Assembly: GCF_019443405.1 (NCBI RefSeq)
Contig: NZ_CP080376.1
Location: forward strand, 248,001-312,000
Direction: 5' to 3'
Length of the DNA stretch: 64,000 nucleotides
Source: Brevundimonas sp. PAMC22021
Lineage (GTDB): Bacteria; Pseudomonadota; Alphaproteobacteria; Caulobacterales; Caulobacteraceae
How positions within the stretch are numbered: the stretch's first letter is position 1; every line of letters starts with the position of its first letter. This document shows, one piece after another, positions 16,975 to 26,697 of the stretch. The notes under the pieces are model-generated. The model worked only from the letters and a program-made list of their open reading frames with translations, had not been told where the DNA came from and searched no databases. The position numbers and the translations under genes were made by a program.

Positions 16975-17739
16975 TCAGCGGGTCAGGGCTTCGTCGGCGA
17001 CCAGGCGCACGATGCGCGCCGAGGAGGGCCGGCCGGCCACGCCCGCGCGCGGATTGACGGCGATGCGAAGGGTGCCGCGCGACAGGGTGGCCTGCGAGGC
17101 GCCGCCCTGGTCGGTGACCACGATGCGCCGCACCTTGTTGGTCTCCGCCCGCAGGTTCGACGACCGCGCCATGCGTACAATGGCGTCCACGGCGGTCGAC
17201 AGCGCGTCGGCGGCGACCGCCTCGGAGCCCGGCTGGATGTCCACATCCACCTGGATCAACCGCCCCAGCGCCGAGGAGGCCCGGCCGCTTTGCCGCACGA
17301 TGTAGTTCCACATCTGCACCGCCGTCATCGACGGCGCCAGCAGCGACGCCGCCTCGCCCGCGCGCGACACGGGCGACCCCTGCGGCGCCGTGGTGGTGTA
17401 AAGCGTCATGCCGCCGTCGGGCGTGACCCGCAGGATCTGATCGCCGTTGTCGTTGCGGTACAGGATGTCGCCGCGCGGCGCGGGCGTCGGGCGCAGCACC
17501 CAGATCTCGGTCGAGCGTTCGAACCTGAGCAGGGGGCGCGAGCCCGAAGTGTCGAGGGTAAAGCTCTGGCCCGATCCCGCGACATAGCGTCCCGTGGCAG
17601 GCGCGCCGCGCCGCCCTTGCGCCTCCGCCGCCAGCGGCGACAGCAGGATCCCGAGCGCGCACACGCCCGCCACGATGGCGAACGCCATCGCGACGCGACG
17701 CGACCGGCGCGTTCTGCGGCGGGGGACCCACAAGTTCAT
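16975..17739 (-). CDS. Secreted protein of unknown function (possible DUF4908)
   Basis: A 254-residue protein with an Arg-rich N-terminus, a hydrophobic signal segment at about residues 17-37 and a likely cleavage after AEAQG. The mature part has a short beta-rich region (FTLDTSGSRPLLRFERSTEIW...) and a helical region with AVQMWNYIVRQSGRASSALG. It looks like a caulobacterial secreted family that I tentatively associate with DUF4908, without certainty. No catalytic motif is recognised. It converges on gloB. Confidence 0.75.
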   Translation of the reverse strand: MNLWVPRRRTRRSRRVAMAFAIVAGVCALGILLSPLAAEAQGRRGAPATGRYVAGSGQSFTLDTSGSRPLLRFERSTEIWVLRPTPAPRGDILYRNDNGDQILRVTPDGGMTLYTTTAPQGSPVSRAGEAASLLAPSMTAVQMWNYIVRQSGRASSALGRLIQVDVDIQPGSEAVAADALSTAVDAIVRMARSSNLRAETNKVRRIVVTDQGGASQATLSRGTLRIAVNPRAGVAGRPSSARIVRLVADEALTR

Positions 17740-17828
17740 GGATGCACAGATGAAAGAGGGCGGCGGCGGATTTTGGGCAAAGGCGGTTCTTGATTCCGGC
17801 TGCCCGTAACGGTGAGCACGATGGAGAG

Positions 17829-17955
17829 CCCCTCCGTCACGAGGCTGCCGCCTCGCGCCCTCCCCATCACTGCGCGACAGGGAGGAGAGATCGCCCTCTC
17901 CTCCCTGTCGAAGATGGGGAGGTGGATCAACGGCGAAGCCGGCGAGACGGAGGGG
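17829..17955. repeat. Palindromic intergenic repeat, copy 1
   Basis: A 127-bp element with inverted ends CCCCTCCGTC (17829-17838) and GACGGAGGGG (17946-17955). Its centre is a perfect 15-bp inverted repeat, CGACAGGGAGGAGAG (17875-17889) and CTCTCCTCCCTGTCG (17896-17910), with a 6-base loop. It stops one base before the stop codon of the alcohol dehydrogenase gene. The half-units match those of the copies at 22714 and 24753 in the opposite arm order. Confidence 0.8.
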
Positions 17956-17956
17956 T

Positions 17957-19027
17957 TCAGGCCGCCTGGGGCAGTTTCGCCATGTCGATCACGAAGCGAT
18001 AGCGCACGTCCGACCGCTCCATCCGCTCGTAGGCCTCATTGATCTGGTCCGGGGCGATGGTCTCGATGTCGCAGGCGATGCCGTGCTCGGCGCAGAAGTC
18101 CAGCATCTCCTGCGTCTCGCGGATGCCGCCGATCAGCGAGCCGGCCACCCGACGCCGGCGCCACAGCAGGGGCAGGGCGTAGACCGGCAGGCCCTCGGTG
18201 GTCAGGCCCAGCATGACCATGGTGCCGTCGCGGGCCAGCAGCTGCACGTGGTCGGCGATCTCGTGGGTGGCCGAGACGGTGTTGATGATCAGGTCGAAGC
18301 TTTCGGCCGCGGCCTTCATCGCCGCCTTGTCCTTGTTGATCAGGAAGTGTTTGGCGCCCATCCGCTCGGCGTCGGCCTTTTTGCGATCGGAGGTCGACAG
18401 GACGGTGACCTCGGCGCCCAGGGCGTGCGCCAGCTTGACCGCCATGTGACCCAGGCCGCCCAGCCCGATCACCGCCACCCTGGAGCCAGGGCCGACGTTC
18501 CATTCCTTCAGCGGCGACCAGGTGGTAATGCCGGCGCACAGCAGGGGCGCGGCGGCGTCCAGCGGCAGGGCGTCGGGGATCGACAGCACGAAATGCTGGT
18601 CCACCGTGATGTGGTCGGAATAGCCGCCCTGGGTGATCGGCTGGCCCGACTGCTCGGCGAACCTGTCCTTGGCGCCGTAGGTGCCGGTGAAGCCGGGGAT
18701 GCAGTACTGCTCTTCCCCCGCCTGGCACGAGGAACACTCGCGGCAGCTGTCGACCATGCAGCCGACGCCCACGCGGTCGCCAACCTTGAAGCGGGTGACG
18801 TCGGCGCCCACCGCCGCGACCACGCCGGCGATCTCATGGCCCGGCGCCAGCGGATAGTGGGCCGGTCCGGTCTCGCTGCGCGCCATGTGCAGGTCCGAAT
18901 GGCAGACGCCGCAGTACTGGATGTCGATCACCACGTCGTCGGGCAGGGGATCGCGGCGCGTGAAGCTGAAGGGCTCCAGCGGCTTGTCGGCGGCGACGGC
19001 GGCGAAGGCGCGTGTGGCGATCGGCAT
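17957..19027 (-). CDS. Zinc-dependent alcohol dehydrogenase, NAD(P)-linked (YahK/cinnamyl-alcohol type)
   Basis: Medium-chain dehydrogenase of 356 residues, probably an NADPH-dependent aldehyde reductase. Catalytic zinc ligands lie in CGVCHSDLH (about 42-50) and GHEIAGVVAAVG (about 66-77); structural zinc Cys residues are in CRECSSCQAGEEQYC (about 99-113). The Rossmann motif is GLGGLGHMAVKLA (about 183-195). The start MPIATRAFAA (19027) fits the family; an upstream start would add 25 residues without resemblance. The physiological substrate is not evident. Confidence 0.9.
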   Translation of the reverse strand: MPIATRAFAAVAADKPLEPFSFTRRDPLPDDVVIDIQYCGVCHSDLHMARSETGPAHYPLAPGHEIAGVVAAVGADVTRFKVGDRVGVGCMVDSCRECSSCQAGEEQYCIPGFTGTYGAKDRFAEQSGQPITQGGYSDHITVDQHFVLSIPDALPLDAAAPLLCAGITTWSPLKEWNVGPGSRVAVIGLGGLGHMAVKLAHALGAEVTVLSTSDRKKADAERMGAKHFLINKDKAAMKAAAESFDLIINTVSATHEIADHVQLLARDGTMVMLGLTTEGLPVYALPLLWRRRRVAGSLIGGIRETQEMLDFCAEHGIACDIETIAPDQINEAYERMERSDVRYRFVIDMAKLPQAA

Positions 19028-19102
19028 GGGCGAGTCTTTCGTGGCGTAAAAGGAAGGCTCAGGTGGCCAGCCGCACCCCGGCGCAACCGGCCGCACCCGC
19101 AC

Positions 19103-19852
19103 TCAGGCCAAGTTTTCGATCAGCGCCTGGGCCGCCGCCGGATTGCGCACCTTGGCCCCCGAGATGAAGTAGGCGAAGACGTCGCCGCGTTTCGCCCAAC
19201 CCCGCGCCCGGGCGGCGATGGCGTCCAGCTCGGCCGCCGTCATGCCGTTCGCTTCGTCCTCTCGGCTGGACATCAGCCGGGCATATCTAAAGTCAGATGT
19301 TTCCTCGTCGATGCAGGGCCAGGTCGGCTCCTCGTCATCGACGGCGTAGACGATGGCCGCACCGTATTTGCGCGCCAGGTCGTGGAACTGCTCGGTGGCG
19401 AAGGTCGGGTTGCGCACCTCCAGCGCATGGCGCAGGCGCAGGCCGTCCTTTTCCGGCGGCAACAGCTTCAGAAAGCCCTCGAAATCCTCGGGGTCGAACT
19501 TCTTGGTTCCCATGAACTGCCAGTTGATCGGCCCGAGCTTGTCGCCGAGCTCGGTCAGTCCCTGCGACAGGAAGCGGTTGAAGCTTTCGCCGCCTTCCGA
19601 CAGCACCTTGCGGTTAGTGCAGTAGCGGCTGGCCTTGACCGAGAAGACGAAACCGTCCGGCGTCTCGTCGCGCCACTTCCTCCAGCTGTCCGGCTTGAAG
19701 GTCGAATAGTAGGTGCCGTTGATCTCGATGGAGGAGAGCGCCCGCGAGGCGAACTCCAGCTCCCGCTTCTGCGCCAGCCCTTCCGGATAGAAGACCCCGC
19801 GCCACGGCTCATAGGTCCAGCCGCCCACGCCCACCCTGATCGCGCCTGTCAT
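19103..19852 (-). CDS. DUF72 family protein
   Basis: A 249-residue TIM-barrel-like protein of the DUF72/YecE family, whose function is unknown. Seen: GVGGWTYEPWRGVFYP at the N-terminus, SSIEINGTYYSTFKP (about 40-54), FVFSVKASRYCTN (about 68-80), and the segment ALEVRNPTF. The start at 19852 is preceded by GGGAGAACCACGC; an in-frame ATG 15 bp upstream is less well placed. It lies 75 bp upstream of the alcohol dehydrogenase in the same direction. Confidence 0.92.
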   Translation of the reverse strand: MTGAIRVGVGGWTYEPWRGVFYPEGLAQKRELEFASRALSSIEINGTYYSTFKPDSWRKWRDETPDGFVFSVKASRYCTNRKVLSEGGESFNRFLSQGLTELGDKLGPINWQFMGTKKFDPEDFEGFLKLLPPEKDGLRLRHALEVRNPTFATEQFHDLARKYGAAIVYAVDDEEPTWPCIDEETSDFRYARLMSSREDEANGMTAAELDAIAARARGWAKRGDVFAYFISGAKVRNPAAAQALIENLA

Positions 19853-19937
19853 GCGTGGTTCTCCCATAGTGCGTGCGGGATATCGCAGGATTCAGCAGCT
19901 CGAGCGATGGGCGAGACGTGGGGACGATCCGGATGCT

Positions 19938-21002
19938 TTATGATGGCGAGCGATCATCCGATGGTTTGGGCGGCGCAAGCGAGGCCAGGCAGACCAGGAA
20001 GGCGCCGCCGAAGGTCAGGATGTCTTCGGCCAGGGCGACGGGGAGGTCACGGCCGGCGGCGCGGGACAGGCGCAGGCGGACGGTGTGGCCGAGATAGGTG
20101 GCGGCAAGCGAGCCGACAGCCCCGGCCAGGGCGGCGGCCGGAGAGCGCCCGCCGGTCAGGGCGCAGCCCGAGGCGGCGCCGCTCGCCGCCCGCACGGCCA
20201 CCGCGATCGGCATCGTGCGGTGCGGGGCGTCGGGCATCTTGTCGCCGGCGAATTCATACAGCGCCAGGGGCGTGACGATGGCGGCGGCCTTGGTGGAGGC
20301 CAGGCCGGAGAAGCGGGTGTCCTTCAGGTCGATCCAGCCCAGGCGCGCCGCCCAGGTGACGGCCAGCAGCGGCGCGCTGGTGCGGTTGCCGCCGGATGCG
20401 CCCAGCAGAAACGCCAGACCTAGAGCGCGCCAGCCTTGCGGTCCTTGCGTCTCCAGCGGCGGGCGCGGCTCGGCCTTGCGCCGGACGGCCGCGACGCCGG
20501 CTTTCACCTTGTCGAGGAAGCGGCGGATCAGGGCGCGCGCCGCCTCGGTGGTCGCGCCGAACACCAGGTGCGAGGCGTAGGAGTAGGGGTGCGACCGCAA
20601 GGGCGCCTTCCAGAACGGATCGCCCAGGCCGGTGGCGGGGACCAGCCCCTCGTCCACCACTGTGGCGGAGGCGACACCGAAAGCCGCGCCGCGGCCCAGG
20701 GTCACGCGGGGCTCGATCTCTGCAGTCATGCCGTAGAGGCCGCCGACCGCGGCGCCCACGGCGTAGTGGACAGCCTCGCCCGCCGCGGGTTTCCTGCGGC
20801 GCGGCACGCCATGGCCGGTGACGGCGCGCGACAGGCGGTCGGCCGCCTTCTCGGTCGAGGGCGCGCCCTTCACGCCCGAGGTGATCCCGCCCTTGGACAA
20901 GAGGGACTGGAACTCGGTCATCACCAGGGCGGCGACCAGGCCTCCGGCGAGGCCGGCGGCGAGACCCAGCAAGGGATCGGCGTCGTCGCGGACGTTGGGC
21001 AT
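19938..21002 (-). CDS. Membrane protein: YagU/DUF1440-like part joined to DUF4126-like part
   Basis: A 354-residue protein with two parts. Residues 1-165 begin with a glycine-rich membrane helix (LLGLAAGLAGGLVAALVMTEFQ), carry a charged loop and GEAVHYAVGAAVGGLYG, and resemble the YagU/DUF1440 family. Residues about 190-345 (LGLAFLLGASGGNRTSAPLL, LYEFAGDKMPDAPHRT, GAVGSLAATYLGH) resemble DUF4126. Both halves are multi-pass membrane regions of unknown function, and I infer a fusion. ATG 21002 has GGAGAGACC upstream. Codon use is that of the neighbours. Confidence 0.75.
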   Translation of the reverse strand: MPNVRDDADPLLGLAAGLAGGLVAALVMTEFQSLLSKGGITSGVKGAPSTEKAADRLSRAVTGHGVPRRRKPAAGEAVHYAVGAAVGGLYGMTAEIEPRVTLGRGAAFGVASATVVDEGLVPATGLGDPFWKAPLRSHPYSYASHLVFGATTEAARALIRRFLDKVKAGVAAVRRKAEPRPPLETQGPQGWRALGLAFLLGASGGNRTSAPLLAVTWAARLGWIDLKDTRFSGLASTKAAAIVTPLALYEFAGDKMPDAPHRTMPIAVAVRAASGAASGCALTGGRSPAAALAGAVGSLAATYLGHTVRLRLSRAAGRDLPVALAEDILTFGGAFLVCLASLAPPKPSDDRSPS

Positions 21003-21076
21003 GGCAGGTCTCTCCGGCGCGGGATGGCGGCTGGTGAACCGCCGGACGCGAGCGCCGGTTCCGCCCGAGCGGCGCC

Positions 21077-22438
21077 TCAGTAGGCGAAGTCGGTGTAGAT
21101 GCGGCGCACGTCGCCCCGCCATTCGCCATGGTAGAGGTCGAGCAGGCGTTCGGCCGGAGTGACGCCGCTGTCGGCGATGTCTTCCAGTTCGGACAGGTAG
21201 CCGCGCTCGTCCACCATGCCGCCGGAGAAGCGGGCGCGGTTCTTCAGGCCCTGGCGGGCGATGGCCACCATGTCCACCGCAATGCCTCGGACCGAGCGGC
21301 CCGCGACCTCGGCCTTCAGCCCCAGGCGGGTCACGTCGCGGCGCAGGCGTTCGTGGTCCTCGACCTCCCAGTCCTTGACCAAGTCCCAGGCGGCGGCGAG
21401 CGAGGGGGCGTCATAGAGGACGCCGGTCCACAGGGCGGGCAGGGCGCAGATGCGGCTCCAGGGGCCGCCGTCCGCGCCGCGCATCTCCAGATAGGCCTTC
21501 AGCCGCACCTCGGGGAAAAGGGTGGTCAGGTGGTCGTTCCAGTCCTTCATCGTCGGCCGATCGCCCGGCAGCGCCGGCAGACGGCCATCCAGGAAGTCGC
21601 GGAACGACTGGCCCGAGGCGTCGACGTAGCGGCCCTCGCGCTTGGCGAAATACATCGGCGTGTCGAGCGCATAGTCCGCATAGCGCTCGAAGCCGAAGCC
21701 GTCCTGGAAGACGAAGTCCAGCATGCCGGTGCGGTCCGCGTCCGTGTCGGTCCAGACGTTGGCGCGGGCCGACAGAAAGCCGTTCGGCTTGCCTTCGGTG
21801 AAGGGCGAGCAGGCGAACAGGGCGGTGGCGATGGGCTGAAGCGCCAGCGAGGTGCGGAACTTCATCACCATGTCGGCTTCCGTATCGAAGTCGAGATTGG
21901 CCTGGATGGTGCAGGTGCGCAGCATCATGTCGAGACCCAGCGTGCCGACCTTTGGCATGTAGGCGCGCATGATGTCGTAGCGCCCCTTGGGCATGACCGG
22001 CACGTCGGCGCGGCTCCACAGCGGATCGAAGCCCGCGCCGAGGAAGCCCAGATCGATCTCGTCGGCGACGGTCTTAACCTCTTCCAGATGCTGGCCGGTC
22101 TCCGAGCAGATGTCGTGGATGGTGAGCAACGGCGCGCCGGACAGTTCGAACTGTCCGCCGGGCTCGAGGCTGACGGAGGCGGCGAAGCCCTCGCCATTGC
22201 GACGCTCCAGCCCGATGACGTGACCGCCCTCCTCGACCGGGGTCCAGCCAAAGCGGGTCAGGCCGTTCAGCATGGCCTTGATGCCGCTTTCACCTTCATA
22301 GGCGGGGCGGCGCAGGGTCTGTTTGTCGAAGCCGAACTTCTCGTGCTCGGCCCCGATGCGCCACTGGTCGCGCGGCTTCATGCCCTTGGACATGGCGCCG
22401 ATCAGATCGGCCTTGGTCAGCGGCGCGTGGTCGGCCAT
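21077..22438 (-). CDS. gshA: Glutamate-cysteine ligase, alphaproteobacterial type
   Basis: First enzyme of glutathione synthesis, ligating glutamate and cysteine with ATP. The 453-residue protein has the GCS2-like ligase fold used in alphaproteobacteria and plants: GAEHEKFGF (about 28-36), VSLEPGGQFELSGAPL (about 90-105), RTCTIQANLDFDTEADM (about 159-175), and the C-terminal substrate region KAYLEMRGADGGPW (about 314-327). Length is normal. It is followed, across 88 bp, by rsmE on the upstream side in the same direction; both are transcribed leftward. Confidence 0.94.
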   Translation of the reverse strand: MADHAPLTKADLIGAMSKGMKPRDQWRIGAEHEKFGFDKQTLRRPAYEGESGIKAMLNGLTRFGWTPVEEGGHVIGLERRNGEGFAASVSLEPGGQFELSGAPLLTIHDICSETGQHLEEVKTVADEIDLGFLGAGFDPLWSRADVPVMPKGRYDIMRAYMPKVGTLGLDMMLRTCTIQANLDFDTEADMVMKFRTSLALQPIATALFACSPFTEGKPNGFLSARANVWTDTDADRTGMLDFVFQDGFGFERYADYALDTPMYFAKREGRYVDASGQSFRDFLDGRLPALPGDRPTMKDWNDHLTTLFPEVRLKAYLEMRGADGGPWSRICALPALWTGVLYDAPSLAAAWDLVKDWEVEDHERLRRDVTRLGLKAEVAGRSVRGIAVDMVAIARQGLKNRARFSGGMVDERGYLSELEDIADSGVTPAERLLDLYHGEWRGDVRRIYTDFAY

Positions 22439-22527
22439 GTGGTGTGCGAAGCCCCTCAGGTGTCGCGGCTAGATGGGCGACCGAACCGCAACGCTCAAGG
22501 GCGCAGTTCTATCCCGCGCAGGAATTG

Positions 22528-23361
22528 TCACCGGTCCCAGTCGCCGGCCGCCGCCTGCCACAGGGTCATGGCGGCGATGGCGGCGGTGTCGGCCCGCAGG
22601 ATGCGCGGCCCCAGAGACACGGCGGTGGTGAACGGCAAGGCTCGCAGCCGCTCGCGCTCCTCCGGCGAAAAGCCGCCTTCGGGACCGATCAGAATGGCCC
22701 AGGGGCCTGAAGATCCTCCCCCCCTGGGGGAGGGGGACCGCGAAGCGGTGGAGGGGGAGCCTGCAAGCGTCGGTGGCTGCGGCTGACCCCCTCCACCCGG
22801 CTGCGCAGGGTCCCCCTCCCCCAAAGGGGGAGGAGTGAGTGCGGTGATCGCCGGGCTGCCGCCGGTCTCGTCACAGAACATCAGACGACGGGCGGGATCC
22901 CAACCGTCCAGAATGCCGTCGAGCTTTTGCGGATCGTCGACGGGGGGCACGTCCAGGCGCCCGGTCTGCTCGGCCGCCTCCTCGGCAATGGCGTCCAGCC
23001 GATCCAGGCGGATGCGGTCGGTGTTGGTGCGGGCGGTGATCGCCAGCCGAACCCGTCGCGCCCCCAGCTCGGCTGCTTTCTCGACGATGGTCTCGACGCG
23101 GGCCTTCTTCACCACCGCCACGATCAGCTCGAGGTCGGGGCCATGGGTTTGCGGCCGCACCCGCTCCTCCGCCCGCAGGATCACGCCCTTCTTCAGCACC
23201 TCGGCCACCGAGGCGCGCCATTCGCCGTCACGACCGTTGAAGACGAGCAGATCGTCGCCCGCCTTCAGCCGCATCACCTGAGTCAGATAGCGGGACTGGT
23301 CGAGCGTCGGCGCGACGGCCGCGCCGGGGGACAGATCGGATGTGACGTGGAGGCGGATCAT
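22528..23361 (-). CDS. rsmE: 16S rRNA m3U1498 methyltransferase RsmE with an in-frame repeat insertion
   Basis: SPOUT-fold methyltransferase that methylates U1498 of 16S rRNA. 277 residues against about 240 usual. The N-terminal PUA-like part (MIRLHVTSDL) and the SPOUT knot motifs WAILIGPEGGFSPEE (about 221-235) and LGPRILRADTA (about 250-260) are intact. The excess is a Pro/Gly/Ser-rich stretch at about residues 176-217, coded entirely by the palindromic repeat at 22714-22834. It lies just before the knot, in a loop between domains, so activity may survive. The reading frame is preserved through the insert. Confidence 0.93.
   Translation of the reverse strand: MIRLHVTSDLSPGAAVAPTLDQSRYLTQVMRLKAGDDLLVFNGRDGEWRASVAEVLKKGVILRAEERVRPQTHGPDLELIVAVVKKARVETIVEKAAELGARRVRLAITARTNTDRIRLDRLDAIAEEAAEQTGRLDVPPVDDPQKLDGILDGWDPARRLMFCDETGGSPAITALTPPPLGEGDPAQPGGGGQPQPPTLAGSPSTASRSPSPRGGGSSGPWAILIGPEGGFSPEERERLRALPFTTAVSLGPRILRADTAAIAAMTLWQAAAGDWDR
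22714..22834. repeat. Palindromic repeat, copy 2, inserted inside rsmE
   Basis: A 121-bp element with nested symmetry. The left arm begins TCCTCCCCCCCTGGGGGAGG and includes CCGCGAAGCGG; the right arm is its near inverse, with CTGCGCAG and CCCCCAAAGGGGGAGGA. The central ~30 bp (AGCCTGCAAGCG... to about 22785) is not palindromic. Arms match the ends of copies 1 and 3. Unlike those, it sits inside a conserved gene and is read in frame. Confidence 0.85.
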
Positions 23362-23371
23362 GCGATCCCGC

Positions 23372-23509
23372 TTACCGCTCTTGGGCGCTCTTGGCAGCAG
23401 CCTTCTTGGAAGCCTGACGCTCGCCTTTCCAGAAGGCACGTTTCGCCCAACGGAGATGCTTCCACCATTCGGTGGGAGGCGTCAGCATGCCCTTCTTCAC
23501 TGTAGCCAT
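23372..23509 (-). CDS. Small basic protein, unknown function
   Basis: A 45-residue, strongly basic protein (MATVKKGMLT..., then PPTEWWKHLRWAKRAFWKG) with two neighbouring Trp residues and a Lys/Ala-rich end. Such short WWKHLR proteins seem to occur in related genomes, from memory, but no function is known. There is no convincing Shine-Dalgarno sequence before the chosen ATG, and an upstream start would add 17 residues. It lies between the acyl-CoA dehydrogenase and rsmE, all leftward, 10 bp before rsmE. Confidence 0.5.
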   Translation of the reverse strand: MATVKKGMLTPPTEWWKHLRWAKRAFWKGERQASKKAAAKSAQER

Positions 23510-23581
23510 AGAGCGATTGTAAACGTGAGGTGACTTCGATGCGAGACCGCATGCGACCACCTGTGATCCTGCGACGCGACG

Positions 23582-24745
23582 CTACAACGTCCGCGCGATC
23601 AACAGCTTCATGATCTCGTTGGTGCCGCCGTAGATGCGTTGGACGCGGGCGTCCTTGTAGAGCTGGGCGATCGGGTATTCGGTCATGTAGCCGTAGCCGC
23701 CGTGCAGCTGCAGCATCTCGTCCAGCGTCTCGCCCTGGATGTCGGTGACCCAGTATTTGGCCATGGAGGCGGTGGCGGCGTCCAGCTGACCCTTCAGGTG
23801 CAGACCGATGCAGTGATCGACGAAGACCTTGGCCACCGTCAGCTTGGTCTTGACCTCGGCCAGCTTGAACTGGGTGTTCTGGAAATCGAGCACGCGCTTG
23901 CCGAAGGCCCGGCGTTCCTTGACGTAGGCCAGGGTGTGCTCGAGACCCCGCTCGGCGGCGGCGACGCCCTGGACCGCGATGTTCAGCCGTTCCTGCGGCA
24001 GCTGCTGCATAAGCTGGACAAAGCCCTGGCCTTCGACCCCGCCGATGATGTTGTCGGCCGGGACCTGGACGTCGTTGAAGAACAGCTCGGAGGTGTCGTT
24101 GGCCTCCATGCCGATCTTGTGCAGGTTGCGGCCGCGCTCGAAGCCCTCCGCACCATCCGTCTCGACCACGATCAGGGAGGTGCCGCGCGCGCCTTCGGCC
24201 GGGTCGGTCTTGGCCACCACGATGATGAAGTTGGCCAACTGGCCGTTGGTGATGAAGGTCTTGGAGCCGTTCACCACATAGCCGTTGCCGCCTTTGACGG
24301 CCGTGGTCTTGACCCCCTGCAGGTCCGAGCCGGCGCCCGGCTCCGTCATGGCGATGGCGCCGACCAGTTCGCCCGAGGCCAGGCGCGGCAGCCAGCGCTG
24401 CTTCTGCTCCTCGGTGCCGTAGTGCCAGATGTAGGGGGCGACGATGGCGTTGTGCAGCGACAGGCCGAAATGGTCCGCGCCCTTCCAGCCCAGCTGGCGC
24501 ATCAGCACCACCTCGTGGCGATAGTCGCCGCCCATGCCGCCGTCCGCCTCGGGGATGGAGACGCCCAGCAGACCCGCCTCGCCCGCCGCGTTCCACAGGC
24601 TACGGGGCACGGAAGAGTCGGCGATCCACTGCTGCACCTTCTCCAGCGGCGCGTGCTCGTCGATCCAGCGGCCGACGCTGTCGGAGAAGAGGGTGATCTC
24701 CTCGTCCTGCATGAAGTCGGGATCGGGGCTGTTGAGGACGTTCAT
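23582..24745 (-). CDS. Acyl-CoA dehydrogenase
   Basis: FAD-dependent alpha,beta-dehydrogenase of acyl-CoA esters, 387 residues. Family signatures: AIAMTEPGAGSDLQG (about 134-148, FAD/substrate site), KTFITNG, and the C-terminal QLHGGYGYMTEYPIAQLYKDARVQRIYGGTNEI (two adjoining signature blocks). The catalytic base Glu of the short/medium-chain class is expected in YGGTNEI. The start ATG at 24745 is 7 bases from GGGGAGGAG, which belongs to the end of repeat copy 3. Substrate chain length cannot be told. A second, longer acyl-CoA dehydrogenase lies upstream. Confidence 0.93.
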   Translation of the reverse strand: MNVLNSPDPDFMQDEEITLFSDSVGRWIDEHAPLEKVQQWIADSSVPRSLWNAAGEAGLLGVSIPEADGGMGGDYRHEVVLMRQLGWKGADHFGLSLHNAIVAPYIWHYGTEEQKQRWLPRLASGELVGAIAMTEPGAGSDLQGVKTTAVKGGNGYVVNGSKTFITNGQLANFIIVVAKTDPAEGARGTSLIVVETDGAEGFERGRNLHKIGMEANDTSELFFNDVQVPADNIIGGVEGQGFVQLMQQLPQERLNIAVQGVAAAERGLEHTLAYVKERRAFGKRVLDFQNTQFKLAEVKTKLTVAKVFVDHCIGLHLKGQLDAATASMAKYWVTDIQGETLDEMLQLHGGYGYMTEYPIAQLYKDARVQRIYGGTNEIMKLLIARTL

Positions 24746-24752
24746 CTGCTTT

Positions 24753-24903
24753 CTCCTCCCCATCGCCCGCGATGGGGAGGGGGACCACGAAGTGGTGGAG
24801 GGGTTGGGGCCGCCTCTCTCTTGAGCTTGGGAGGAGGTTCGCCCCTCCGTCTCGGCGGCTGAGCCGCCGATCCACCTCCCCATCGCGCAGCGATGGGGAG
24901 GAG
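24753..24903. repeat. Palindromic repeat, copy 3, between two acyl-CoA dehydrogenase genes
   Basis: A 151-bp element with outer ends CTCCTCCCCATCG (24753-24765) and CGATGGGGAGGAG (24891-24903), each forming its own small hairpin (CCCCATCG/CGATGGGG). Internal parts include ACCACGAAGTGGT and GGCGGCTGAGCCGCC. Its left end supplies the Shine-Dalgarno sequence of the acyl-CoA dehydrogenase starting at 24745. It fills nearly all the gap between the two genes. Confidence 0.85.
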
Positions 24904-24912
24904 AGTTGAGCT

Positions 24913-26697
24913 CTAGAACGCCTCGGCCGGCATCTGCATCAGGACGTCGGCGCCGGTCTTCAGCTTCTTCAGGTGCGCGCCGGCGTCGGGCAGGATGCGC
25001 TCGACGAAGTAGCGGCCGGTCATCAGCTTGTTGGCGTAGAAGGGATCGGTCGCGCCCGCATCAACCTGGGCTTGCGCCGCCTTAGCCATCTGCGCCCACA
25101 TATAGGCCAGGGCCGTGACGCCGAAGATGTTGAGGTAGTCGGTCGAGGCCGCGCCCGCGTTGTCCGGATTGGCCATGCCGTTCTGCATCAGCCACATGGT
25201 GGCCTCCTGCAGCTTCTTCTTGGCGTCGGCCAGGCCGTCGACGAAGGGCTTGATCGGACCGTCCGCGCCGTTCTCGGCCACAAAGGCGTCGATGTCGGAG
25301 AACCAGGTCATGATGGCCCGGCCGCCCTGGGCCGGCAGCTTCCTGCCCACCAGGTCCAGCGCCTGGATGCCGTTGGTGCCTTCGTAGATCATGGTGATGC
25401 GGGCGTCGCGCAGGTACTGCGAGGCCGGGAAGTGCTCGGTGTAGCCCGAGCCGCCGTGCACCTGCATGGCCAGGGACGCGACATGGAAGCCCTTGTCGGT
25501 CAGGTACGCCTTCACCACCGGGGTGATCAGACCCATGTAATCCTTGGCCCTGGTGGCGGTCGCTTCGTCCGCCGAGCCCTGCAGGTCGGCCTGAAGCGCG
25601 GTCCACAGCACCAGCGCCTGGCCGCCTTCCACGAACGCCTTGCCCTCCAGCAGCATGCGGCGGACGTCCGGGTGGACGATGATCGCATCGGCGGCCTGGT
25701 CGGGGTTCTTCGGTCCCGTCAGGCTGCGGCCCTGGATGCGGTCCTTGGCGAACTCGACGGCGGCCTGATAGGCGGCGGTGCCGATGGCCAGCCCCTGCAG
25801 GCCGGTGCCCAGGCGCGCCTCGTTCATGACCACGAACATGTTGTTCATGCCCCGGCCTTCTTCGCCGACCAGCCAGCCGGTGGCGTTGTCATAGGCCATG
25901 ACGCAGGTGGCGTTGCCGTGGATGCCCATCTTGTGCTCGAGGCCGGCGCAGACCACGCCGTTGCGCTCGCCGAGCGAGCCGTCCTCGTTGACCAGCACCT
26001 TGGGCACCACGAACAGCGACAGGCCCTTGATGCCGGCCGGCGCGCCCTCGACGCGGGCCAGCACCGTGTGGATGATGTTGTCGGTGAAGTCGTGCTCGCC
26101 CGCCGAGATCCAGATCTTCTGGCCGGTGATCGAATAGGAGCCGTCGCCGTTCGGAACCGCCTTGGTGCGCACCATGCCCAGGTCGGTGCCGCACTGGGGC
26201 TCGGTCAGGTTCATGGTCCCGCCCCACTCGCCGGTGGCCATCTTGGGCAGGTATTTTGCCTTCAGTTCGTCAGAGCCGTTGGCGTGGATGCCCGCATAGG
26301 CGCCCGCCGTCAGGCCCGGATACATCGAAAAGGCGGCCGAGGCCGCGGCTGTCATCTGGCCGAACGCCATGCCGATCACCGCCGGCATGCCCTGGCCTCC
26401 GAACTCGGTGTGGGCCGACAGCGCGGGCCAGCCGGCCTCCACCATCTGCTGATAGGCTTCCTTCCAGCCGGTCGGGCCGGTGACCACGCCGCCGTCGGAC
26501 AGCTTGCAGCCTTCCTGATCGCCGACCCGGTTGATCGGGGCGATGACTTCCTCGGCGAACTTGGCGCCTTCTTCCAGGATCTGGCCGACCAGGTCGGAGG
26601 AGACGTCCTCGAAGCCCGGCTGGTTGGCGTGGCGGTCGATCTCCAGCACTTCGTTGAGGATGAAGGTGAAGTCGCGGACGGGCGCCGTGTAGGCCAT
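24913..26697 (-). CDS. Acyl-CoA dehydrogenase with extra C-terminal domain
   Basis: A 594-residue acyl-CoA dehydrogenase of the long type (N-terminal alpha, middle beta, C-terminal alpha domain plus an added helical C-terminal domain, about 470-590), as in 3-methylmercaptopropionyl-CoA dehydrogenase DmdC and relatives. Signatures: TMNLTEPQCGTDLGMVRT (about 159-176), GQKIWISAGEHD, and QVHGGSGYTEHFPASQYLRD (about 418-437). The start at 26697 is 3 bp after the stop of the MerR gene, so the pair is an operon. Context suggests inducible acyl-CoA catabolism; the exact substrate is open. Confidence 0.92.
   Translation of the reverse strand: MAYTAPVRDFTFILNEVLEIDRHANQPGFEDVSSDLVGQILEEGAKFAEEVIAPINRVGDQEGCKLSDGGVVTGPTGWKEAYQQMVEAGWPALSAHTEFGGQGMPAVIGMAFGQMTAAASAAFSMYPGLTAGAYAGIHANGSDELKAKYLPKMATGEWGGTMNLTEPQCGTDLGMVRTKAVPNGDGSYSITGQKIWISAGEHDFTDNIIHTVLARVEGAPAGIKGLSLFVVPKVLVNEDGSLGERNGVVCAGLEHKMGIHGNATCVMAYDNATGWLVGEEGRGMNNMFVVMNEARLGTGLQGLAIGTAAYQAAVEFAKDRIQGRSLTGPKNPDQAADAIIVHPDVRRMLLEGKAFVEGGQALVLWTALQADLQGSADEATATRAKDYMGLITPVVKAYLTDKGFHVASLAMQVHGGSGYTEHFPASQYLRDARITMIYEGTNGIQALDLVGRKLPAQGGRAIMTWFSDIDAFVAENGADGPIKPFVDGLADAKKKLQEATMWLMQNGMANPDNAGAASTDYLNIFGVTALAYMWAQMAKAAQAQVDAGATDPFYANKLMTGRYFVERILPDAGAHLKKLKTGADVLMQMPAEAF

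Follow-up and report, generated by a model that had tools for sequence, protein, structure and literature searches.

Palindromes that are read into proteins are best known from Rickettsia, where they are usually put down to small genomes and drift, and intergenic palindromic repeats of other alphaproteobacteria are known as CIR and RIME. Two further organisms relevant to the comparison, E. lithoralis and S. alaskensis, are free-living alphaproteobacteria. In PMC10969869, the Rickettsia RPE are described as palindromes of 100–150 bp that occur both between genes and in frame within unrelated conserved genes, where they encode peptides, and the CIR of Caulobacter as strictly intergenic; the RIMEs of rhizobia are mentioned in PMC2573895. 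REPs have been found within genes of several bacteria, E. lithoralis and S. alaskensis among them, with many in DNA repair genes, as single copies or inverted pairs lying mostly near gene 3' ends and in some cases in frame, and two Xanthomonas carry different REPs at about the same site of recB (PMC3733652). The Brevundimonas element described here resembles RPE in its length of 121 bp, its occurrence at a minimum of 59 loci, and its presence not only between genes but also, in frame, within six unrelated conserved genes. Unlike RPE, it is G+C-rich and belongs to a culturable genus with genomes of 2–4 Mb, and several unrelated Brevundimonas families are found in the same loops, the likeness to RPE being one of description. 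The initial annotation had likened the element to those of Rickettsia and pointed to its free-living alphaproteobacterial host; in-frame precedents outside Rickettsia include those in E. lithoralis and S. alaskensis (PMC3733652). In-frame palindromes are therefore an already known kind of insertion, and what stands out as unusual is that unrelated families have entered the same loops repeatedly. No literature on this Brevundimonas family or on its recurrence was found among open-licence papers.

The window analysed is the whole 64,000-nucleotide stretch C1:248001-312000 of the single contig that constitutes the 2.9-Mb genome of Brevundimonas sp. PAMC22021. The rsmE gene and the palindrome within it comprise the following features:

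22528..23361, minus strand: rsmE, 16S rRNA (uracil1498-N3)-methyltransferase, stop codon included, 277 aa with the insert
22714..22834, no strand assigned: palindromic element of family A, 121 bp, in frame within rsmE
22787..22834, minus strand: first-read arm, 48 nt, encoding PPPLGEGDPAQPGGGG
22758..22786, minus strand: spacer separating the arms, 29 nt, not conserved between relatives
22714..22757, minus strand: second-read arm, 44 nt, encoding PSTASRSPSPRGGG
22734..22754, plus strand: GGGACC..GGTGGAGG, forming the inner hairpin in one arm (genome C1:270734-270754)
22790..22814, minus strand: GGGACC..GGTGGAGG, forming the inner hairpin in the opposite arm (genome C1:270790-270814)

Each arm of the rsmE element combines a tip hairpin (TCCTCCCC..GGGGAGGA) with an inner hairpin of the GGGACC type. 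Positions 22711-22837, folded as RNA in the rsmE sense, reached −107.3 kcal/mol versus −66.9 ± 4.6 for shuffled sequences (z = −8.84), the corresponding DNA fold gave z = −8.49, and in both cases none of 200 shuffles folded equally well, confirming the palindrome that the initial annotation had delimited at exactly 22714-22834. Its placement in an open rsmE frame is likewise upheld, since RsmE homology picks up again in frame on either side of the insert, which also argues against a wrong reading frame. Beyond the insert, the SPOUT residues L224-I-G-P-E-G-G-F231, which adjoin its end, and L250-G-P-R253, farther downstream, are invariant in 46 aligned rows. The insert contributes about 40 residues, slightly fewer than the 42 or so first proposed: the closest empty relative, P0018, which is 94% identical to the window RsmE in the alignment, has 239 aa compared with 277, a difference of 38 aa, and the net gain of the gene is 114 nt over a 51-nt linker, as against an element length of 121. 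An assembly error can be dismissed, as the metagenomic proteins P0002 and P0003 (91% and 89% identical) bear an insert at the same place, and a known structured RNA found no support in Rfam, where a scan of window positions 17500-25200 returned no match at gathering score and only a chance-level miRNA hit of 23.4 bits versus the 66 required. Judging from the sequence, the insert is presumably translated into a hydrophilic, Pro/Ser/Gly-rich and probably disordered peptide, and RsmE, which carries it in a loop ahead of the SPOUT knot, has most likely kept its activity.

BLAST searches with the rsmE copy and two other copies in the window, followed by clustering, identified at least 59 distinct related loci in the genome. 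This is a lower bound, because 40 of 51, 82 and 77 candidates were scored for the respective queries, and a few of the 59 loci are supported by weak matches, with E up to 0.06. The two other window copies are:

17829..17955, no strand assigned: palindrome of sister family C, arms unlike those of the rsmE copy
24753..24903, no strand assigned: related palindrome, half family A and half family C, outside conserved coding sequence

The arm pattern GGGACC-N(4-14)-GGTGGAGG occurs 32 times in this genome versus once for the reversed control, and 2722 versus 89 times across 131 genomes of the genus, 128 of which contain at least one match. In the inner stems of the 32 own-genome arms, 83 of 89 positions pair (0.93), compared with 0.39 for shuffled stems (maximum 0.54 of 500), and the pairs vary, the first position showing GC, AT and CG and the second CG and TA. 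Initially, the rsmE copy had been taken to match both of the other window copies in its arms. For the copy at 24753 this holds for one half (30 nt at 93% identity; 33/46 ungapped), the other half being family C. The copy at 17829, in contrast, has a different arm, with no BLAST match to the rsmE copy at E ≤ 1 and best ungapped matches of 24/46 and 26/48, close to the random level (mean 22, maximum 27, for 300 random window stretches compared with the 46-nt arm only). Family C, with arms of the form CCCTCCGTC..GACGGAGGG, accounts for the whole of the 17829 copy and half of that at 24753, and from this A/C hybrid the arms seem to be exchangeable modules. In the carB and E2 inserts described below, one of the two halves is likewise a C arm. 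Outside the genus, a phage collection contained no match to the element, and in a plasmid collection seven Sphingomonas records matched at about 72–88% identity. Related palindromes on plasmids of Sphingomonas parapaucimobilis, a member of another alphaproteobacterial order, begin at a gene end (L442 1501-1635, L443 1501-1630), and in the two records examined the match does not lie inside a gene.

All 59 loci were inspected with 1.5 kb on each side. At the 53 non-genic loci, whose neighbours were called from codon-position composition only, the gene ends facing the element comprised 53 3' ends versus 23 5' ends, and at 42 of these 53 3' ends the stop codon lay no more than 18 nt from the matched stretch, so that the usual home of the element is directly after a stop codon. 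The family thus shares with REPs the character of short palindromes found mostly by gene 3' ends and sometimes in frame. It differs from GTAG-tagged REPs in that none of the three window copies contains GTAG or CTAC. CGTC/GACG occurs in the rsmE copy in the spacer region only, and in the 17829 copy in both arms, not at the very end. A further difference from REPs concerns the Y1_Tnp (RAYT family) transposase, which is absent from this genome and from 127 of 131 genus genomes, being found in only four, whereas control genomes were positive in 5 of 14 cases; a RAYT-driven REP was rejected on these grounds. Two of the four genomes with a Y1 transposase, G113 and G114, also have a filled rsmE, numbers too small for meaning. 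Like MITEs, the elements are multicopy inverted repeats that are short and non-coding, yet the target duplication for which a search had been proposed is missing: among 21 delimited copies, including those in rsmE and sufS, 15 showed 0 nt and six a single equal base, none reaching 2 nt, which led to rejection of a MITE with target duplication. Comparison of filled and empty junctions revealed no clean insertion point and no consensus target. With CIR and RIME the family has in common the intergenic palindromic repeat, in the case of RIME by description only. CIR takes its name from CcrM sites, whereas none of the three window copies has a GANTC, and in 3 of 21 full copies one lies no farther than 10 nt from the matched stretch; in contrast to the strictly intergenic habit of CIR there are copies inside genes.

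In-gene copies were recognised by frames that run across the element and have coding composition to either side of it, the genes being named by NCBIfam. The search for further coding copies suggested in the initial annotation proved productive, as the 59 loci include seven in-frame insertions in six genes: rsmE, sufS, carB, a helicase gene, an E2 gene (twice) and a capsid gene. Besides rsmE, these own-genome insertions are:

C1:332265-332393: insert in carB
C1:947680-947801: insert in sufS
C1:1876228-1876278 (locus L164): half element inside an HK97 major capsid gene, in frame
C1:2105066-2105121: insert in the ligase-associated DEXH helicase gene
Within C1:2738137-2738260 and 2738562-2738607: two insertions in a lipoyl E2 acyltransferase gene

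The best NCBIfam models for the E2 gene are pyruvate dehydrogenase ones, with scores under their cut-offs. The E2 and carB insertion sites are linkers between domains. In sufS, the element starts a few bases past the end of the upstream open frame yet behind the sufS start, and is therefore part of the SufS N-terminus; most sufS relatives likewise start with MADG. Insert-free relatives exist for carB, sufS, the helicase, rsmE and the capsid, the last of these being represented by P0125 and P0126 without the insert and by P0122–P0124 and P0127 with an insert at the same place. Translated element matches are also seen in other genomes. Not every in-gene copy is cleanly coding, since a helicase insert of another palindrome type in G097 (locus L290) contains an in-frame TGA, which may reflect a pseudogene or a sequencing error.

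Among 33 family-A arms matching the pattern at the rsmE, carB, E2, helicase and sufS loci, 31 are read in a single codon phase, yielding GEGD.. or PSTASRSP, a count that treats relatives as independent; the two exceptions are the same helicase arm with one insertion common to G112 and G024. Counted by site, all seven own-genome insertions share this phase (chance 0.0005, with the capsid phase taken from its protein). Stop codons are missing from all six frames of the three arms sampled, so that avoidance of stops does not explain the bias.

Quite probably, then, the rsmE copy belongs to a dispersed REP-like Brevundimonas repeat that is at home after stop codons, rare within genes, and retained there by filtered survival. 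Copies would usually settle directly past stop codons, their hairpin probably serving as a structure at the mRNA 3' end, and an occasional copy would land within a gene. Such a copy would persist if its net length preserves the frame, if it is placed in a loop or linker, and if the codon phase of its arms yields a hydrophilic, harmless peptide. A selfish-looking repeat thus appears to be made into protein in genes that are not visibly broken. Within this account, we infer both the mobility of the element and the cause of arm conservation inside genes. Some observations weigh against it: the in-frame TGA of the G097 helicase insert, the two arms read in another phase, a net gain in rsmE (114 nt) that differs from the element length (121), junctions of filled and empty alleles that reveal no clean point of insertion, and a search for a Y1 transposase that yielded no mobiliser in this genome.

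The occupancy of homologous sites across the genus bears directly on this interpretation. The rsmE gene is present in 127 of 131 genomes, and 126 loci from 125 genomes were read, of which 124 (123 genomes) have both junction sides and are readable, the count omitting G039 and G105 (second part missing), G084 and G123. Element-derived inserts fill the loop at 18 of these 124 loci and the remaining 106 are empty, so that the empty site sought in relatives is common; the frame is intact at all 124, and empty linkers measure 45–63 nt, with exactly 51 nt in 85 of 106. An insert present in all Caulobacteraceae and conserved at the protein level is thus not what is observed: the empty alleles, together with arms conserved at the DNA and not the protein level, support the parallel with the in-frame palindromes of Rickettsia. 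The 18 filled loci hold six full family-A elements, seven full elements of family B (TCTCCCTCCCC..GGGGAGGGAGA), one of a further kind (G114), one half A (G008) and three single B hairpins, indicating an origin from at least three palindrome families, and fall into about 12 sequence groups. Among named species, B. guildfordensis and B. intermedia are filled, and B. basaltis has a half element. Filled and empty alleles are interleaved on the gene tree, quick insert-free trees requiring at least 16 (protein) or 15 (DNA) changes between the two states. A single clade was rejected for the A rows together with the half A (p 6e-39) and for the B rows (p 8e-48), and was not rejected for the similar inserts of G020 and G077, of G024 and G028, and of G098, G106 and G062. 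In a small control of 30 rsmE loci with their flanks, tip hairpins lie in the loop at nine loci and in the flanks at three, at the latter always no more than 220 nt from the edge of the locus. Similar recurrence is found elsewhere, with inserts at 4 of 29 readable loci for carB, 13 of 26 for the helicase (in addition to one short remnant) and 6 of 29 for sufS, in samples that favour filled alleles as they consist of the 30 best-scoring of 46 genomes for each gene, and at all three loops more than one palindrome family occupies the same site. E2, sampled in the same way, was left out of these counts in view of its naturally variable linkers, 4 of 30 E2 loci having been misplaced at the first site. 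Since the genes were chosen for their inserts in this genome, its own copies are no evidence of a hot spot, whereas those of other genomes are. Such recurrence could arise from permissive loops alone, from a target preference, or partly from recombination of filled alleles.

The most serious alternative, which we consider possible though less probable than the account above, ascribes the scatter of filled rsmE alleles largely to horizontal transfer or recombination, with some losses, in place of many separate insertions. Recombination may indeed have moved filled alleles, making the true number of rsmE events less sure. G020 and G037 have flanks 98.1% identical, and the bases beside the insert differ more; in G024 and G028 the whole insert with its spacer is closer at third positions (59/64) than are the flanks (167/222, p 0.0028), a pattern suggestive of transfer or conversion there; and the rsmE copies of the present genome (G000), G086 and G113 share an inner-hairpin variant unseen in the other 31 own-genome arms. 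Losses do occur, since helicase locus L303, which has no full insert, ends in GGGALDA like its filled relatives and looks like a deletion scar. Nevertheless, some 12 insert groups from three or more families call for several insertions in any case, the prevailing 51-nt empty linker is not scar-like, and the unlinked carB, sufS and helicase loops also hold different families.

A second alternative arises from the level at which the arms are conserved. In rsmE, 28 of 29 arm third positions are the same in each of four pairs, compared with flank values of 160/222 for G086/G113 (p 0.0025), 170/222 for G106/G098 (p 0.013), 162/222 for G106/G062 (p 0.0045) and 168/222 for G098/G062, that is, 72–77% identity, while the insert spacers drift to 45–76%. 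Arm third positions are thus conserved beyond the flanks, implying conservation at the DNA or RNA level, and this constancy may reflect recent arrival, conversion or selection on structure. If the last of these applied, in-gene copies might be kept for their folded mRNA, for instance in slowing ribosomes between domains, with the peptide as a by-product. The very stable RNA fold, the contrast between arms and spacers, and the location of several sites in the inter-domain linkers of E2 and carB are in keeping with this proposal; however, arm conservation would also be seen if other copies had converted the element or had recently given rise to it, the element is missing at most rsmE loci, and the phase bias suggests that the peptide is also under selection, so that we find it unlikely. 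Similarly doubtful is a bolder version of the preferred account, in which a non-Y1 mobiliser steers unrelated families to the same loops of housekeeping enzymes and the in-gene arms are fixed at the nucleotide level, the loops being true targets and the folded mRNA or DNA functional besides the peptide. That RsmE merely has an ordinary variable loop of palindromic appearance by chance is highly improbable, for although loop length differs in some other relatives (L087, L102, L104, L105), the arms recur at the DNA level in dozens of dispersed copies, which refutes a native loop, and the linker keeps one length in most empty genus loci.

A dispersed repeat that is occasionally retained inside genes thus remains the preferred reading, and makes Brevundimonas, some species of which can be cultured, a Rickettsia-like case. 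With filled and empty rsmE alleles distributed over 123 genomes, both the choice of site and the presence of the insert in the protein become testable, and the recurrence itself supplies a natural catalogue of conserved-enzyme loops in which some 35–50 added residues are tolerated.
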